Below are positions 14,806 through 21,166 of a stretch of 64,000 bases of DNA, in pieces. The position numbers and the translations under genes were made by a program. This stretch comes from Micromonospora vinacea (lineage in GTDB: Bacteria; Actinomycetota; Actinomycetes; Mycobacteriales; Micromonosporaceae), in the NCBI RefSeq assembly GCF_015751785.1, contig NZ_JADOTY010000001.1, forward strand, positions 248,001 to 312,000. The letters run 5' to 3'. The notes beneath the pieces are model-generated. The model worked only from the letters and a program-made list of their open reading frames with translations. It was not told the origin of the DNA and searched no databases. Numbering within the stretch: the stretch's first letter is position 1; every line of letters begins with the position of its first letter.

Positions 14806-14898
14806 GGAACCCGGGCGGCGTCGTCGCGCACATCCGGCGCCGCCCGGCCTCAACCATCTCCTGGACGGGAGGCGTTTCTCCTGTGCGAGGGGGTGGGC

Positions 14899-15402
14899 AT
14901 GGTCGAGTCGTTCCACGAGTTCGTGGTGCATCGTTCGCCGGCGTTGTGCCGGACCGCGTACCTGCTCACCGGTGACCACCAGCTCGCCGAGGATCTGGTG
15001 CAGACAGCCCTCGCCCGGACCTACCGGCACTGGCGGCGTGTCCGCGACGGCAACCCGGAGGCGTACGTGCGGCGCGCCATGTACCACCAGCAGATCTCCT
15101 GGTGGCGACGCCGTCGACTGGTCGAGCGGCTGGAGCCGACGCCCACCGAGCGGGCCGACGTGGATCACAGCGAGGCCACCACACTGCGGCTGACCCTGAA
15201 CGCGGCGCTGCGTCAGCTCAGCCCCCGGCAGCGGGCGGTGATCGTGCTGCGCTACTACGAGGACCTGACGGAGGCCCAGGTCGCCGAGGTGCTGGGCTGC
15301 TCGGTCGGTGCCGTGAAGCGACACGGCCACGACGGCCTGCGCCGGCTACGAGCCGTCGCTCCGGAGTTGGTGCAGGACACCGCGGAGAGGAGCACCCGAT
15401 GA
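14899..15402 (+). CDS. SigE-type ECF RNA polymerase sigma factor
   Basis: This protein of about 167 residues has region 2 at RTAYLLTGDHQLAEDLVQTAL and region 4 at LRQLSPRQRAVIVLRYYEDL, ending in the helix-turn-helix AEVLGCSVGAVKRHGHDGL. This is the short SigE-family ECF type common in actinomycetes. ATG 14899 was chosen over GTG 14893 because the AGGGGG tract fits it. The stop overlaps the next start as ATGA, so the two are translationally coupled. Confidence 0.9.
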   Translation: MVESFHEFVVHRSPALCRTAYLLTGDHQLAEDLVQTALARTYRHWRRVRDGNPEAYVRRAMYHQQISWWRRRRLVERLEPTPTERADVDHSEATTLRLTLNAALRQLSPRQRAVIVLRYYEDLTEAQVAEVLGCSVGAVKRHGHDGLRRLRAVAPELVQDTAERSTR

Positions 15403-16775
15403 CCGTCCGACTCCGCGAGGCGCTGCGGTCCACCGCCGAGGACGTGCCCACCTACCCGGTGTACGAGCGCGCTCTCGCCACCGCCCGTCGTTCCCGCCGC
15501 CGCCGGTTGGCCGCTGCCGCCGGGGCGGTGGTGCTGCTCGCGCTGGCCGGGGTGACGGTGCCGCTGACCCGTACACCTGCCCTCGACCCGGCCGCCGCGG
15601 ACGCCGCGCTGCCCGACCGGCTCGGCCTGCCGCCGATCGGCACGCTGTACGTCACCGACCGTCCCCGGCTCGGGTCCGCCTCAGTTGTCTTCACCGGCCC
15701 CGCGCCACGCCTGCGCGGGTGGAACAACACGAGCATCGTCGGGCTGGTCGGCGCGGACTCCGACAACTATCGGATCATGCGTGTGGGTGGGGAGGCGGCG
15801 GCCGGCGAGACGGTGCACCTCTCCCCCGACGGCCAGCACGTCGCTCGACCCGACGGCGAAGAGGACGAGCCCGGCGTCGACGTCGTCGACCTGGGCACCG
15901 GCCGGACCCGGCACCTCAGGTCCAGCGTCACCGACACGGTGGCGAGCACGCCGGTCGGCTGGTCCGCCGACGGCTCGTCGCTGGTCGTCCGGGACGAGGT
16001 GCCCGTCGCCTTCGACGGTGCCACCTACACGTCGGTGCTGAGCATCGTCCCCCTGGACGGTGGGCGCTGGACGGCGTTGGCGTCCGGCGCGCAGGAGGCG
16101 CGCTTCGGGTCGACAGTCGCCGCCGCCCCGGGCCGACTCGCCTACCAGTACGGCCGCACTGTCACGGTGGCCGACGCGCAGGGTCGGGAACTCTCCTCGT
16201 TCCCCCTGCCCGACGAATCCTGGCTGGCCGGCAAGGGTGCGTGGAGCCCCGACGGTGCCACGCTGACGCTGGCCACCCGTCGGGCGGACACCGGCGAGTG
16301 GACCCTGCGCCAGGTCGACCCCCGCACCGGGCGCGACGGCAAGGCACTACGGCTGCCCGCGGTGACCGGGGCGGTCTCCGTCCGGTTGCTCGGCTGGGCA
16401 CCGGACGGTTCCGCGCTGGTGGCCGCCTACCAGCAGGACCCTGACGCGCCCGAGCGTCCACTGGAGGAGCAGACCGGGCCGCCCGCGACGGCCGAGCAGG
16501 TGAGCAGCGTACGGGTGTTGGCGCTCACGCCCGGTGCCACCGCGCCACGGACCGTGCTGACCGCGCCCGCCCAGGTGAACGCCGTCGACATCGCCGATCA
16601 GGTGATCCGCGGCGGACGGGTCCGCGACGCAGAACCACCGGGCGGGGTGGGCGGGCGGTTCTGGCTCTGGACGGGGCTGGTGACGGTGCTCGTCGCCGGG
16701 GCCGTCCTCTACGGCACCCGCAGACGGACCCGACGGTGGCTCGACGGCCGCCGCACGCCGGCCACCGGCTACTGA
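15399..16775 (+). CDS. Anchored beta-propeller-like protein coupled to the ECF sigma factor
   Basis: The product has 458 residues. A cytoplasmic N-terminus of about 35 residues (LREALRSTAEDVPTYPVYER) is followed by RRSRRRR and one membrane helix near 37-55. A long extracytoplasmic region then has repeated WSPDG/WSADG/WAPDG motifs typical of WD40-like propellers. A second membrane helix lies near 430 before a basic tail. The four-base overlap with the sigma gene suggests it controls or senses for that sigma factor, though no zinc anti-sigma motif is visible. Its stop overlaps the convergent downstream gene by 7 bases. Confidence 0.75.
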   Translation: MTVRLREALRSTAEDVPTYPVYERALATARRSRRRRLAAAAGAVVLLALAGVTVPLTRTPALDPAAADAALPDRLGLPPIGTLYVTDRPRLGSASVVFTGPAPRLRGWNNTSIVGLVGADSDNYRIMRVGGEAAAGETVHLSPDGQHVARPDGEEDEPGVDVVDLGTGRTRHLRSSVTDTVASTPVGWSADGSSLVVRDEVPVAFDGATYTSVLSIVPLDGGRWTALASGAQEARFGSTVAAAPGRLAYQYGRTVTVADAQGRELSSFPLPDESWLAGKGAWSPDGATLTLATRRADTGEWTLRQVDPRTGRDGKALRLPAVTGAVSVRLLGWAPDGSALVAAYQQDPDAPERPLEEQTGPPATAEQVSSVRVLALTPGATAPRTVLTAPAQVNAVDIADQVIRGGRVRDAEPPGGVGGRFWLWTGLVTVLVAGAVLYGTRRRTRRWLDGRRTPATGY

Positions 16776-17323
16776 GCGGCGTCGGGATCCAGCACCGGGC
16801 GTACGGCGTCGACGAACGAGATCCGGCGCTTCGTCCGTACCTCGATCGCCGCGAGCCAGCGCTCCCGGTGCCGGTCCCGCAGTGGCGCGCTCCCGTCGCC
16901 CGGCTCGTCGCCGAACCGCCGCTGGTCGGCGTACTCAGTGGTGAGGCTGGTCAACACGGCCCGGCCAGCCTCGGCGACCTCCGCCGGGCCCTCCAGCAAC
17001 ACCAGGTTGTACGCCTCGTCCACGGCGCGCATCGCCGCGTACGCCTCGTCGTAGCCGGGCACCGGCTCACCCCCGCCGACGTCGAGCCACCGCCGGTCCA
17101 ACTGCCGGTACGCCTGGTCGCAGGCGCTCAGGAACCCGACGTACGCGTCCCGCCGCAGCTCGCCCCGACGCGTCGCCCGGCGCTCGACACTCTCCTGTCG
17201 GGCCACGGTGAGCTGGTGGGCCAGTTGCCGACGGGTGCTGAGCGCTCCGACCAGCCCGGTCAGGGCGGCGGCGGCCAGGGTGGACAGTGAGGTGATCAGC
17301 GCGACTGCGACGGTGTCCTGCAC
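16769..17323 (-). CDS. Hypothetical membrane-anchored coiled-coil protein
   Basis: This 184-residue protein has one N-terminal membrane helix (residues 4-26, SLSTLAAAALTGLVGAL) followed by a charged helical segment rich in Arg, Glu and Gln, predicted to be a coiled coil. No catalytic motif is recognised. Similar small anchored helical proteins are common in actinomycetes without known function. The start is GTG; the 3' end overlaps the propeller gene tail to tail. Confidence 0.65.
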   Translation of the reverse strand: MQDTVAVALITSLSTLAAAALTGLVGALSTRRQLAHQLTVARQESVERRATRRGELRRDAYVGFLSACDQAYRQLDRRWLDVGGGEPVPGYDEAYAAMRAVDEAYNLVLLEGPAEVAEAGRAVLTSLTTEYADQRRFGDEPGDGSAPLRDRHRERWLAAIEVRTKRRISFVDAVRPVLDPDAAQ

Positions 17324-17438
17324 CCGCCCATCATGGCGGTGGCCGACGTGAACGTCGTCTTCACAACCCAGAACCTAACTGCTGAGCTGCCGGGGATCGC
17401 ATGCGCCGGGGTGGCTGGAGTTGCGGTACCGCCGGACG

Positions 17439-17642
17439 TCAGGGCAGTTCGTAGCCGGCTTCCTCGACTGCGGCACGTACCTCGGCGATGTCGAGAGGTC
17501 GATCGCTCGTCACCGTGGCGGTGTCGCGTTCGACGTCCACCGCCACGGCGGTGACACCGGGAATCCGTTCGATCTCCTCGGTGACGAAGCCTGCGCAGTG
17601 TCCGCAAGCCATCCCGATCACCCGGTAGCTGCTCACGGTCAT
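17439..17642 (-). CDS. Heavy-metal-associated (HMA) copper-chaperone-like protein
   Basis: This 67-residue ferredoxin-like HMA domain has the metal motif GMACGHC near residues 10-16 and the usual DVERDTATV and AVEEAGYEL segments, like CopZ or the free HMA domain of a P-type ATPase. It should bind Cu(I) or a similar soft metal in the cytoplasm. Its ATG overlaps the stop of the NTF2-like gene (ATGA), so the two are co-translated. No metal ATPase is nearby, which is unusual for a CopZ. Confidence 0.85.
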   Translation of the reverse strand: MTVSSYRVIGMACGHCAGFVTEEIERIPGVTAVAVDVERDTATVTSDRPLDIAEVRAAVEEAGYELP

Positions 17643-18106
17643 GCCGGCGACTGCCTTCGGTCGGGCGCCTCCGGTGGCGAGGGCTCCGAGCTGACCTCGG
17701 CTGGGGTGACACCGTTGGCCTTTACCGGGACCGAGCGGGTGAGCATGTGCGCCCGGCGCATCCGCCCGTCGACCGCGAACTGCCCGAAGAAGTGGACGTC
17801 CACACTGCCCTCGCGCTTGGAGGTCTGGAAATGCAGCGTGTAGCGGGCAGCGATCCGGTCCCCGTCCGCTATCGCCTCGTGCACCTCCCACCGGGCGTCG
17901 GTCTGGTGCTTCCGCGCCGGGCGGGTGTGCGCGATGAGCTTGGCGCGGTCCATCAGGTTGCCGTCGGCGACCTGCACAATGTCGGGCGTGTGGTACCGGT
18001 CGACGACCACTGCCGGATCCTCGTCGCCGTGAACCAGCTCGCCCATGAAGGAGGTGAAGAAGTTGGCGATGAACTCCTTCGGGTCGATGTCGGCGAAAAC
18101 GCCCAT
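17639..18106 (-). CDS. NTF2/SnoaL-like protein
   Basis: This 155-residue protein has the NTF2-like pattern: an N-terminal helix pair (FIANFFTSFMGELVHG) and the pocket segment VVVDRYHTPDIVQVADG. The sheet segments are WEVHEAIADGDRIAARYTLHF and EGSVDVHFFGQFAVDGRM. Such proteins bind small ligands as enzymes or carriers. It is divergent from a TetR gene with an operator-like palindrome between them, and is followed by the HMA gene in a four-base overlap. Confidence 0.75.
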   Translation of the reverse strand: MGVFADIDPKEFIANFFTSFMGELVHGDEDPAVVVDRYHTPDIVQVADGNLMDRAKLIAHTRPARKHQTDARWEVHEAIADGDRIAARYTLHFQTSKREGSVDVHFFGQFAVDGRMRRAHMLTRSVPVKANGVTPAEVSSEPSPPEAPDRRQSPA

Positions 18107-18138
18107 GTCACCACCGTCAGCTCGGGATTCGGCAAACC

Positions 18139-18153
18139 TTTACGGCTTGTAAA
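18139..18153. promoter_or_regulatory. TetR-type operator candidate TTTACGGCTTGTAAA
   Basis: TTTAC and GTAAA form a perfect inverted repeat with a 5-base spacer in the 83-base gap between the TetR gene and the NTF2-like gene. The surrounding AT-rich bases are unlike the GC-rich background and likely hold both promoters. A TetR dimer bound here could repress both directions. Confidence 0.55.
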
Positions 18154-18189
18154 ATATCGACCTCCGAGAACTTTGGCAAGGTGTAAGAG

Positions 18190-18774
18190 ATGAGTGGCTC
18201 AGCAGACCGCAACCGACGCGCCGACGCCCGCCGCAACAACAGCACGATCCTCGACGCGGCGGTCCGACTGCTCGACGCGCAACCCGACGCGAGCCTCGAC
18301 GCCATCGCCGGCGCCGCCGGGGTGACCCGGCAGACTGTCTACGCCCACTTCCCGTCCCGCGAGCACCTGATGGCAGCCGTCGTCCGACGGATCACCGACG
18401 AGGCCGTCGCCGCGATGGACGCCGCCGAGCCAGACAACGGATCCGCTATGGACGCGCTGATCCGCGTCCTCGAGGCCGGCGCCCAGACCGCCGGGCGCTA
18501 CCCGGCCCTCATCCAGCAGATCGCGTCAATTCCGGTAAGCCCGCACGTCGACGAAGAACGCCACGCGCCGGTCGCCGCCCGGATCAACCGAGTGATCCAG
18601 CGCGGTCAGGCGAGCGGCGAGTTCGACAAAGGACTCCCGGCCGCCTGGCTGGCCGCGATCACTATCAAGATCGGCCACGCCGCGGGCGAGGAAGTCGACG
18701 CCGGCCGGATGCCCCGGAGCGAGGCCGCCGACGCGCTGCGTACCGTCCTGGCCAGGCTGCTGCGCCCCGAATAA
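18190..18774 (+). CDS. TetR/AcrR family transcriptional regulator
   Basis: This 194-residue protein has an N-terminal TetR DNA-binding domain: ILDAAVRLLDAQPDASLDAIAGAAGVTRQTVYAHFPSR spans residues 21-58, shown here only by its key TRQTVYAHF recognition helix. An all-helical ligand domain follows. It is divergently arranged with the NTF2-like/HMA pair, the typical layout for a local repressor whose ligand is handled by the neighbouring genes. Confidence 0.9.
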   Translation: MSGSADRNRRADARRNNSTILDAAVRLLDAQPDASLDAIAGAAGVTRQTVYAHFPSREHLMAAVVRRITDEAVAAMDAAEPDNGSAMDALIRVLEAGAQTAGRYPALIQQIASIPVSPHVDEERHAPVAARINRVIQRGQASGEFDKGLPAAWLAAITIKIGHAAGEEVDAGRMPRSEAADALRTVLARLLRPE

Positions 18775-18998
18775 TCGTGTGCGAGGTGGCCGACCAACGG
18801 GCGGAGGCCGAGGTGGTCGCCTCCTACGGTGACCCTCCAGCCGGATGGTGAGCAGCCTTCTGCCAGGTGCACACAACCCTCGGCCGCGCGAACAACCAAA
18901 AGGACGGTGCGGGCCGCCTCTGGGCGGCCCGCACCGTTATCGAACGCCGGGCGCGTTACGCCCGTCTGCCGGAATGCTGGCGGGTGGGAGTTCCCGGC

Positions 18999-20144
18999 CT
19001 ACAGGTCGGCCTTCGTCACGCGGGAGGATTCGTACGTCGTGGAGGACTGGGGGAGGCCCGGCACGGTGGAGACGTCCTTGACCAGCATGCCGGTCTTGGC
19101 GTCGATGGTCAGCACCTCGCTGACCCCGCCGCCGAACACCTCGGGGCCAGCGGTGATCGTCAGCGTGGCCTTGCCGTGGGTGGTCGAGTTCTTGACGCTG
19201 ACCGCGGAGATGGTGGACAGCAGACGCAACACACCGGCCCGGACCTGCGTGTTGCCGTCGCCAGCGGACAGCGCTTGGGTGCTGAACGTCCACAGGGCGT
19301 TGTCGAGGTGCCGCTGAACGGCCTGGGGGCTGTACGGCTTCGGCTCGGCGTTGCCGCCCTTCTGCTTGATAATCACCTGGGCGGCGGCCTGCTGCTTGTC
19401 CCACACCGCCTTCTGCGCTGCGGGGTCGAGGCCCACCAGCGGATCCTTGGCCGCCTTGAGCATCTGGGTCCGGCCGTCGGCCGGGCTGATGTCCGCCGCG
19501 GCGACGGCTGCCTTGAGGAGCGGAGCGTACCCGCCGTCCGTCATCTGATCCTGGTTACGGGCGATCGCACGCTTGATGTCCTGCACGCTGTTGCCCGTAT
19601 AGATCGCGTGACCGTCGGTGTACAGCGTGTAGACGACCTGCATGGTCTTGGTGCCGTGGACCTGCGTCGCCTTCACCAGCCACGCGTCGCCCGCCGACGG
19701 GGTGATCGTCGTGATGGAGCCGGCCAGGGTCATCAGCGGTGCGCGCTCGGCGGACCCGTCGACGGTGGTCGAAGCCGAGGTGGCGGCCGACGAATCCTTG
19801 CCGGCCTCCAAGCCCCCGGTCGCCGGCGAGTTGAGCACCACAGCGACGACTGCCGCCGCGGCGGCAACCCCCACCCCGGCGCCGATGCCCAGTCGGCCCG
19901 CGATACCGATCCGGCGGCGGCGCTGAATCGCCGGGCTGGATTCGTGGTCCCGCGTGGTTGTCGTCGTTTCCATGGTTGAAGTCGCCTCCATAGTCGTGTC
20001 CTCCGCTGATATCGCGCCCAGCAGCCGCACGGTTCCGGGGTCGGCCATAGCCGCCCGCAGCACCGCCCGCGCCCGCTGATACGCCTCCGGGCGAAGTGGT
20101 TCTGCGCTGCCCAACGCACCGACCAGATCGAGCTCGTCTGTCAT
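18999..20144 (-). CDS. CU044_5270-family anchored protein coupled to an ECF sigma factor
   Basis: This 381-residue protein has a cytoplasmic N-terminus of about 85 residues (LGSAEPLRPEAYQRARAVLR), then one membrane helix near 88-106. The extracytoplasmic domain continues to the end with TLTITAGPEVFGGG and SEVLTIDAKTGMLV, the pattern of the actinobacterial CU044_5270 family. These genes regularly follow ECF sigma genes, and an anti-sigma or stress-sensing role is inferred. The ATG overlaps the sigma stop as ATGA. Confidence 0.78.
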   Translation of the reverse strand: MTDELDLVGALGSAEPLRPEAYQRARAVLRAAMADPGTVRLLGAISAEDTTMEATSTMETTTTTRDHESSPAIQRRRRIGIAGRLGIGAGVGVAAAAAVVAVVLNSPATGGLEAGKDSSAATSASTTVDGSAERAPLMTLAGSITTITPSAGDAWLVKATQVHGTKTMQVVYTLYTDGHAIYTGNSVQDIKRAIARNQDQMTDGGYAPLLKAAVAAADISPADGRTQMLKAAKDPLVGLDPAAQKAVWDKQQAAAQVIIKQKGGNAEPKPYSPQAVQRHLDNALWTFSTQALSAGDGNTQVRAGVLRLLSTISAVSVKNSTTHGKATLTITAGPEVFGGGVSEVLTIDAKTGMLVKDVSTVPGLPQSSTTYESSRVTKADL

Positions 20145-20713
20145 CGGTGTCTCTCCTTCGCGCTGTTGCGGTCCTTCAGAAGCGCGGACACTCCCGGCGC
20201 GTCGCGCAATGCCGTCCTGGCCTGGCTCAGCAGCCGCCGCGCGGTGCCGGCCGGTATGCCGAGTGCCCGCGCGGCGTCGGCTGCGGTCAGGTCCTCCCAG
20301 GCGACGAGCCTCAGGACCTCCCGCTCTTCGGGTTTGAGCCGCGTCAGGGCCGACCGGAGCACCGCCCGGGCGTCCACGCCGAGGTCCACCGCCGACCACG
20401 GATCCCATTCAGTAGCCACGTCCGGTACGTCCGCGACCAGGTCCTCGGCCGGCCGGGACCGCCAGTAGCGCCGCAAGCGATTCAATGCCACCCCGTACAG
20501 CCACGGCCGCGCATCGTTGTACGACCGGTCGTACAACCGCCGCGACTCGAACGCCGCAACCCACACCTCGCCCAGGAGGTCCTCAGCCGCATCCCGCCCC
20601 GCCCGGCGAACGAGGTAAGAACCGACGGCGACCTCATGACGCTCGACCACCTCCACGAAGGCGTCGACATCGCCATCCAGCGACCGGCCTATCAAATCCG
20701 CATCCGAAGCCAT
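20141..20713 (-). CDS. ECF RNA polymerase sigma factor
   Basis: This 190-residue protein has region 2 around RRAGRDAAEDLLGEVWVAAF and region 4 around RLKPEEREVLRLVAWEDL, ending in the helix-turn-helix AARALGIPAGTARRLLSQAR. The ATG at 20713 is chosen because GAGGAGG sits four bases upstream. The longer frame would need a TTG. It is coupled to the CU044_5270 gene by a four-base overlap, repeating the arrangement at 14.9-16.8 kb with different proteins. Confidence 0.9.
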   Translation of the reverse strand: MASDADLIGRSLDGDVDAFVEVVERHEVAVGSYLVRRAGRDAAEDLLGEVWVAAFESRRLYDRSYNDARPWLYGVALNRLRRYWRSRPAEDLVADVPDVATEWDPWSAVDLGVDARAVLRSALTRLKPEEREVLRLVAWEDLTAADAARALGIPAGTARRLLSQARTALRDAPGVSALLKDRNSAKERHR

Positions 20714-21042
20714 GGCCCTCCTCGGCAAAGTCGGCGCTTCAACCTGTCATTGCCGATCAGGCGAGAAAGTGTTCAGGCGCCGAGGTCCGAGGGCGAGCGG
20801 CGCTGTCGCCGCACCTGCTCCGCGGACTGGCCGTCGAGTCGATCTCAGGTCGCCCCGCCCCGCGTCGCGTTGACGCCCGAAAGGACTGCCCTGATGTGCT
20901 CCGAACCGCTCGGGAACTGGTCAAATGCCTTGGCAGCGCAGCGGCGGGGACGGCGTTCAGTTTCATGGGGTGTCCAGGTCGAGGGCATGGCTGCACAGGT
21001 CGCCGGGCTGCTCTGGAAGGCCGACTGAGACGACAACTGAGA
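20714..21042. other. Gap without a clear gene; possible remnant of a deleted gene
   Basis: About 330 bases separate the sigma gene from the tRNA terminator. On the plus strand a short segment ending at a stop at 21026-21028 reads like a protein C-terminus (VEGMAAQVAGLLWKAD), but no start or domain supports a gene. I see no RNA gene or inverted-repeat element. Confidence 0.3.
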
Positions 21043-21078: not shown

Positions 21079-21094
21079 CTTACTGGTCGGAGTG

Positions 21095-21166
21095 TGGGCG
21101 CGGCAGGTTTCGAACCTGCGACCCCCCGCTTGTAAGGCGGGTGCTCTCCCACTGAGCTACGCGCCC
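21095..21166 (-). tRNA. tRNA-Val (anticodon TAC)
   Basis: Read on the minus strand, the 72-base gene has acceptor stem GGGCGCG/CGCGCCC, a D arm with GTAGCTCAGTGGGAGAGC, anticodon loop CTTACAA, and T arm GCAGGTTCGAACCTGC. The anticodon TAC decodes GTA and other valine codons. The CCA end is not encoded. The anticodon stem and T arm pair perfectly. Confidence 0.97.

Follow-up and report, generated by a model that had tools for sequence, protein, structure and literature searches.

The window analysed here, a stretch of 64,000 nucleotides of Micromonospora vinacea (positions 248001-312000 of a 7.34 Mb single-contig genome), carries two modules in each of which a gene for an extracytoplasmic function (ECF) sigma factor overlaps the gene of a membrane-anchored protein. 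In module 1 a SigE-family sigma factor (sigma 1) is paired with a protein bearing an outer beta-propeller (partner 1), and in module 2 an ECF sigma factor of another type (sigma 2) is paired with a protein whose outer domain weakly resembles RseB and LolA (partner 2). We consider it probable, from patterns of gene loss, exchange and divergence among relatives, that each pair comprises an ECF sigma factor and a membrane-anchored anti-sigma factor whose N-terminal tail alone holds the sigma factor.

The gene pairs and their domains

The features of module 1, in window positions and with their basis in brackets, are:
14849-14876, forward strand: promoter-like motif CTCAACC-N-GGCGTT, 22 bp before the sigma 1 start codon (conserved pattern)
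14899-15402, forward strand: sigma 1, SigE-family ECF sigma factor, 167 amino acids (aa) (TIGR02983; Pfam sigma regions 2 and 4)
15399-15402, forward strand: ATGA start/stop overlap of sigma 1 and partner 1 (sequence)
15399-16775, forward strand: partner 1, 458 aa, comprising tail, transmembrane (TM) helix, beta-propeller and second TM helix (hydropathy, family profile, sequence)
15399-15506, forward strand: cytoplasmic tail of partner 1, 36 aa, a putative minimal anti-sigma domain (tail/sigma association, profile matches behind other sigma factors, co-divergence)
15507-15563, forward strand: TM helix 1 of partner 1 (hydropathy)
16659-16715, forward strand: C-terminal TM helix of partner 1, then an Arg-rich end (hydropathy, sequence, family alignment)

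Those of module 2 are:
20750-20775, reverse strand: promoter-like motif TGAACACTT-N-TCGGCAA, 36 bp before the sigma 2 start codon (conserved upstream of sigma factors of the sigma 2 type)
20141-20713, reverse strand: sigma 2, ECF sigma factor outside TIGR02983, 190 aa (TIGR02937 and TIGR02983 scores)
20141-20144, reverse strand: ATGA start/stop overlap of sigma 2 and partner 2 (sequence)
18999-20144, reverse strand: partner 2, 381 aa, comprising tail, variable linker, TM helix and RseB/LolA-like outer domain (sequence, hydropathy, AlphaFold2 (AF2))
20046-20144, reverse strand: conserved 33-residue tail core of partner 2, with two predicted helices at residues 5-13 and 19-33 (conservation; AF2 at low confidence)
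19836-19892, reverse strand: TM helix of partner 2 (hydropathy)
18999-19754, reverse strand: outer domain of partner 2, of weakly RseB/LolA/LprG-like fold (AF2, VIA-align, Foldseek)

The initial annotation had pointed out an ATGA coupling of two different ECF sigma genes with genes of anchored proteins. The sequence confirms this, with a four-base overlap in both pairs and sigma genes that are unrelated to each other, and among relatives the overlap goes beyond chance, being exactly four bases in 92 of the 95 propeller loci with an intact sigma gene and in all 24 long-tailed partner 2 loci with a sigma gene. A purine-rich sequence resembling a ribosome site precedes each start. Sigma 1 scores 185.2 bits against TIGR02983, above the curated cut-off of 141.55; sigma 2 reaches 60.3 bits with that model, so that it falls outside the SigE family, and 61.9 bits with TIGR02937 (cut-off 42.9). 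It is also correct that neither partner shows any recognised anti-sigma domain or the zinc motif: HxxxCxxC, the mark of the zinc anti-sigma (ZAS) type, is absent from the N-terminal parts, and both window tails are free of cysteine.

The name beta-propeller for partner 1 is borne out at the level of its family. Partner 1 alone matches PD40 of Pfam at a sub-threshold E of 0.018, while a profile of the propeller family retrieves WD40 and TolB chains from the PDB by hmmsearch (2ymu at E 2.2e-31, TolB at 5e-15) and 19 of 20 family members match PD40 at E<=0.1; by this similarity to solved propellers partner 1 is WD40/PD40/TolB-like. Given the second TM helix (16659-16715), both ends of its propeller would be membrane-held. 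The 21 named loci of module 1 comprise 19 from Micromonospora and one each from Verrucosispora and Hamadaea. The source genome also contains a propeller relative (L323, G000:C1:170393-171421) that has neither tail nor sigma gene.

For partner 2 (residues 1-379 in most searches) the label CU044_5270, given by the initial annotation, is right at superfamily level only, because 23 of 40 members of the partner 2 family match that model (NF038083, best E 7.7e-10) and the window protein does not: it shows no match at E<=1 (cut-off 100 bits) and is absent from the ten CU044_5270 matches in its own genome at E<=0.001. Eight of those ten were examined as loci, six of them with an ECF sigma gene, and the other two matches sit no more than 0.6 kb from places matched by the SigE-family model; the name of NF038083 itself bears no anti-sigma label. 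The AF2 model of partner 2 has a pLDDT of 77-95 in each ten-residue block beyond residue 130, and its tail is predicted, at low pLDDT, as two helices. With VIA-align the outer domain is closest to RseB (Z 7.0, 6% identity), followed by LolA and LprG, and Foldseek with the same model returned nothing at E<=0.001 (best E 0.012). As the Z score is under 8 and no Foldseek match reaches that threshold, the RseB/LolA likeness of the modelled domain is a lead only.

Association of the tails with the sigma factors

The propeller outer domain is found at E<=0.001 in 231 of 250 genomes of the family. Dropping identical outer domains reduced 155 propeller proteins to 133 different ones for classification, two ectodomain pieces with no usable TM helix (the L204 and L313 fragments) having been set aside before this count; the loci are the best-scoring places of the searches rather than every place, and for the list of 250 genomes they amount to 30 loci and 80 regions. 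A protein was taken to be with sigma when a sigma match ended no more than 400 bases upstream of its TM helix. Such a sigma gene is intact in 95 of the 133, and the tail is present in 94 of these 95 proteins (tail-profile score of 31 bits or more), at a length of 34-46 aa; the sole tail-less case, L282, is frameshifted and its tail is readable in another frame. Of the 38 proteins with no intact sigma gene, 32 are tail-less over the 70 residues ahead of the TM helix (at most 1.4 bits), L039 having no clear TM helix either. The six that keep the tail are five loci beside sigma remnants and one natural fusion. The remnants, judged by eye from frame translations, consist of an apparent internal deletion (L233), the 3' end only (L246, L031) and short 3' pieces (L247 and L303, the latter the least clear). 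The fusion, L309:199-1974 (-) on G078:C455, is an unbroken 592-aa frame of SigE-family sigma factor, tail, TM helix and propeller. These counts, taken from sequence, support the view that the tail goes with the sigma factor and not with the outer domain. In L246 and L031 the remnants share nearly the same starting point inside region 4 and begin with similar short stretches, which would fit a cut made by a common element or by recombination.

An artefact of shared ancestry and of the choice of best-scoring homologues could in principle create such an association, since the propeller loci come from the top of search lists and include many near copies, and the tail profile, trained on sigma-linked tails, is biased towards them (the six tail-keeping exceptions, L062, L066, L068 and L338 lay outside its training set). 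We regard this as the least likely of the explanations considered. On the outer-domain tree, with sigma gene or remnant counted, there are eight independent contrasts on supported branches, of which 7.9 on average point the same way and none the opposite way (median p 0.008); with only intact sigma genes counted there are 12 contrasts, about 7 in the same direction, none opposite and 5 undecided (median p 0.016, range to 0.06). Loci of other families agree: a search of 296 genomes of the class, scoring at most six places per genome, found six genomes of other families with propellers at E<=1e-20, one of which (L338; propeller 84 bits) has the sigma gene, the 4-bp overlap and a tail of 42 bits, and the other five (L333-L337) have neither sigma gene nor tail.

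In the partner 2 family the tail is exchanged together with the sigma factor. Its outer domain occurs in 45 of the 250 genomes, and 47 of 49 different proteins have a sigma gene upstream (L186, whose sigma gene lies 186 bases off, is included in the 47, and the remnant L053 is left out of the 49). All 24 long tails stand with a sigma factor of the sigma 2 type and all 23 short tails with one of the SigE type, under the same outer domain (47 of 47). The two proteins with no sigma gene are L167, at a contig edge, and L191, in which the sigma gene and the 5' part of the tail are both lost. L180 and L184 have a much shortened linker, and their first 33 residues are still recognisable; because this core persists while the linker shrinks, the comparison points to the core as the functional part of the tail. 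At L053:991-1746 (+) a sigma gene is kept as far as region 4.1 or so and then continues directly as the C-terminal part of a partner 2-type outer domain, an apparent deletion remnant.

The tail also co-diverges with its sigma factor. Using p-distances, overlapping control windows and no tree correction, and with region names following our reading of the alignment, the distances of tail and sigma factor in 91 propeller pairs correlate at 0.83, and none of 47 equally wide outer-domain windows goes beyond 0.79. When the outer-domain signal is removed the partial correlation of the tail is 0.60, near that of the best control window (0.61; mean 0.31). Broken down by sigma segment, the value for the tail is higher than that of any of the 20 control windows in three segments, two that cover regions 2.1-2.2 and one that enters region 4.1; in region 4.2 and the N terminus it is not. 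The surfaces of sigma regions 2 and 4.1 are those bound by anti-sigma factors of classes I, II and III (PMC7406223).

Tailed partners and upstream motifs across the genome

The design recurs throughout the genome. The SigE-family model (TIGR02983) finds 86 places, 18 of them above the cut-off, and 24 of the 30 best loci have, -14 to +14 bases downstream, a gene whose product begins its first TM helix at residue 33-65 (L060, which falls below the coding score, is counted among them). The remaining six are L069, with no downstream gene in reach, L071, with an unrelated gene at 61 bases, L074, with a secreted protein, L082, with a zinc anti-sigma factor, L083, with a 147-residue N domain, and L084, with a zinc-motif protein. 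The occurrence of two modules within 6 kb, noted as a repeated layout by the initial annotation, is therefore best seen as coincidence in a genome with about two dozen such modules. A conserved pairing of modules 1 and 2 was likewise rejected: in the six other genomes with a long-tailed partner 2 (G002, G020, G028, G029, G030 and G034), some of them draft assemblies, no propeller match lies on the same contig. Just beyond module 2 the window has a tRNA-Val gene (anticodon tac; 21094-21166, reverse strand).

The 24 outer domains contain only three like pairs by BLASTP at E<=0.001 (L057/L058, L059/L061 and L073/L080), so that most of the outer parts show no sequence relationship to one another. 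Against the propeller profile L057 and L058 score strongly, and L062 (23.5 bits) and L055 (12.8 bits) are weak matches. The genome was also searched with a profile built from 22 propeller tails, including one of its own, and 150 of 827 first-look candidates were scored. Its best five places are the two propeller modules followed by L062, L066 and L068 (E 0.005-0.03), and all five sit directly behind SigE-family sigma genes; among matches six to fourteen, whose E values start at 0.066, only the eleventh is preceded by a sigma gene. The outer domain of L062 is a very distant propeller, and for those of L066 and L068 no kinship with the propeller could be detected. It is the short tail, present under such outer domains too, that tracks the sigma factor, and the proposal of two anti-sigma classes defined by the propeller and by CU044_5270 is not supported. 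The outer domains look like interchangeable sensors.

Each module of the window is preceded by a motif of its own. The strict CTCAACC-N-GGCGTT pattern lies upstream of 29 of the 95 propeller-module sigma genes, with further variants seen by eye; counting both strands, the 1.03 million bases of these loci contain it 34 times. In the whole 7.34 Mb genome a relaxed form has exactly two occurrences, each before a propeller-module sigma gene (one for a reversed-pattern control), and the sigma 2 motif pattern occurs once (control none); both patterns were drawn up after the sequences had been inspected. The motif of module 2 is thus confined to its own sigma gene, and that of module 1 stands also before its paralogue. 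Such private motifs fit a small, self-activating regulon in which they would serve as promoters. Upstream of the sigma genes in L187-L198, L050-L178 and L030-L261 we noticed, by eye, conserved motifs particular to each clade, e.g. TGACAACGTC...GGGTCTTACC, which could let promoter specificity be read by clade.

Proposed mechanism and comparison with known anti-sigma factors

We propose that one translationally coupled mRNA yields sigma factor and partner, such that neither would outrun the other, and that the anti-sigma part of the partner is its cytoplasmic N-terminal tail only, 36 residues in partner 1 and the 33-residue core in partner 2. The tail would form two short helices on sigma regions 2.1-2.2 and 4.1 and, in the manner of CnrY, prevent the sigma factor from reaching RNA polymerase. 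The outer domain, the beta-propeller in module 1 and the RseB/LolA-like domain in module 2, may act as the sensor, from which a signal by way of ligand binding or proteolysis would free the sigma factor to transcribe its own operon from its private promoter. The suggestion of undescribed anti-sigma factors at this locus accordingly survives in part: co-loss, co-switching and region-specific co-divergence support the partners as unrecognised anti-sigma factors, though not as classes defined by their outer domains. Our best reading by analogy is that of transferable minimal anti-sigma tails joined to swappable sensors and working like class II (CnrY) domains. With much less assurance, and on balance, we favour a wider proposal for the Micromonosporaceae. 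A large class of one-piece membrane sensors, of which this genome has about two dozen, would there share one sigma-binding element, a transferable inhibitory tail some 35 residues long; mostly unrelated outer domains would be exchanged while tail and sigma factor stay matched, and module 2 would represent a second, unrelated tail type that arose likewise.

Several observations weigh against these proposals. The switch of tail type in the partner 2 tree is a single event (support 85) seen many times. The linker between sigma 2 and sigma 4 also co-diverges with the tail (1 of 20 controls is higher), and a set of 24 non-redundant pairs gives a weaker effect, the partial correlation of the tail being reached by 2 of 40 control windows. 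Many SigE-family partners of the genome score near zero against the propeller-tail profile and the tail of partner 2 scores -7.6 bits, the tails of modules 1 and 2 not being recognisably homologous. In the AF2 model of the L309 fusion (pTM 0.47) the tail is one helix running from sigma region 4 into the membrane with no docking, a model that tests little because its alignment held sigma rows only and no tail relatives. Against PF17524 (CnrY) the best E values are 0.0086 (5 of 40 partner 2-family members at E<=1) and 0.027 (2 of 52 tails), the scores seen being 14.9-15.2 bits against a cut-off of 25, and where the alignment was inspected, in two tails, it covers residues 30-60, the Arg/TM part; membership of the CnrY family by sequence was rejected on these sub-threshold scores. 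NF033790 is matched by 1 of 40 (E 0.23). Tails scanned together with the TM helix against NCBIfam anti-sigma models match NF052375 in 17 of 52 cases (best 0.0026) and NF010501 in 5 of 52 (best 4e-5), and the sole alignment range seen (15.4 bits, cut-off 100) spans the TM helix. Finally, the sign of the effect, inhibitor or activator, is not readable from sequence.

This last point leaves room for a positive factor, whose tail would tether the sigma factor at the membrane or deliver it and be needed for its activity; co-loss, co-switching and co-divergence fit any direct partner. We know of no positive ECF partner of this layout. Coupled co-transcription and co-divergence with the surfaces of regions 2 and 4.1 match instead the inhibitors described in PMC7406223, and a positive role seems improbable. 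That the tail is a topology signal only, Arg-rich and positive inside, in a partner that just shares an operon with the sigma factor, appears slightly less probable again: the propeller tails are indeed short and end in an Arg-rich stretch beside the TM helix, but 32 of the 38 propellers with no intact sigma gene drop the tail while mostly keeping a TM-like stretch, the conserved part includes an N-terminal LRxAL helix and not arginines alone, and a single outer domain carries different tail types according to the sigma type beside it. It is very unlikely that the partners are divergent class I factors missed by profiles rather than short minimal domains. Class I, the most widespread type, lies beside about 32% of ECFs, and its domain (class I anti-sigma domain, ASDI) averages 101 aa with four helices and has the zinc motif in about 56% of cases (PMC7406223), whereas the propeller tails, at 34-46 aa in 94 of 94, have room for two. 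Members such as RseA, RskA and RsrA also adjoin ECF genes and are often membrane bound; here the tails have 33-46 aa.

We return to putative direct binding and inhibition by the tail as the preferred reading, and to the known systems that it resembles. We found no paper on a beta-propeller anti-sigma factor, a SigE/WD40 pair or CU044_5270, of which the 2021 ECF re-classification and a 2015 actinobacterial survey may contain a prior mention. No solved anti-sigma factor, RsbN included, could be assigned by sequence, as no anti-sigma entry stands among the PDB matches listed for the partners and profiles (60 of 136 for one profile). RsbN is membrane-linked and lacks a zinc motif. As the anti-sigma factor of BldN in Streptomyces (class III) it is, like the proteins proposed here, actinobacterial, and with its dual binding to sigma 2 and 4 (PMC7406223) it is, beside CnrY, a precedent for the proposed mode of binding; it differs in having three helices. 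The L309 fusion would match the idea that some ECF extensions arose by fusion with an anti-sigma factor (PMC8999054). One survey of ECF anti-sigma factors (PMC7406223) discarded domains shorter than 50 residues, which it took for possible divergent class II, and would pass over tails of 34-46 residues because they are below that limit. If the tails are anti-sigma domains, a share of the actinobacterial ECF systems with no assigned inhibitor would acquire inhibitor, sensor and self-promoter together, in parts modular enough for tail swapping between the two modules.

The closest likeness is to CnrY of the CnrH/CnrY system of Cupriavidus metallidurans, a membrane anti-sigma factor whose short, two-helix cytoplasmic domain embraces sigma 2 and sigma 4 (PMC4598750, PMC7406223). 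Both tail types share with it a short cytoplasmic N-terminal domain before the TM helix and the lack of zinc, and the length is that of class II, with 34-46 aa in 94 of 94 propeller tails and a 33-aa core plus variable linker in partner 2. CnrY depends for sensing on a separate protein, CnrX; in the modules described here one chain carries both the tail and, as its outer part, the presumed sensor. RseB is a separate periplasmic protein, and the weakly RseB-like domain of module 2 belongs to the chain of the membrane protein itself. The comparison suggests that the two modules work in a short, class II-like (CnrY-like) mode while not being members of CnrY by sequence.

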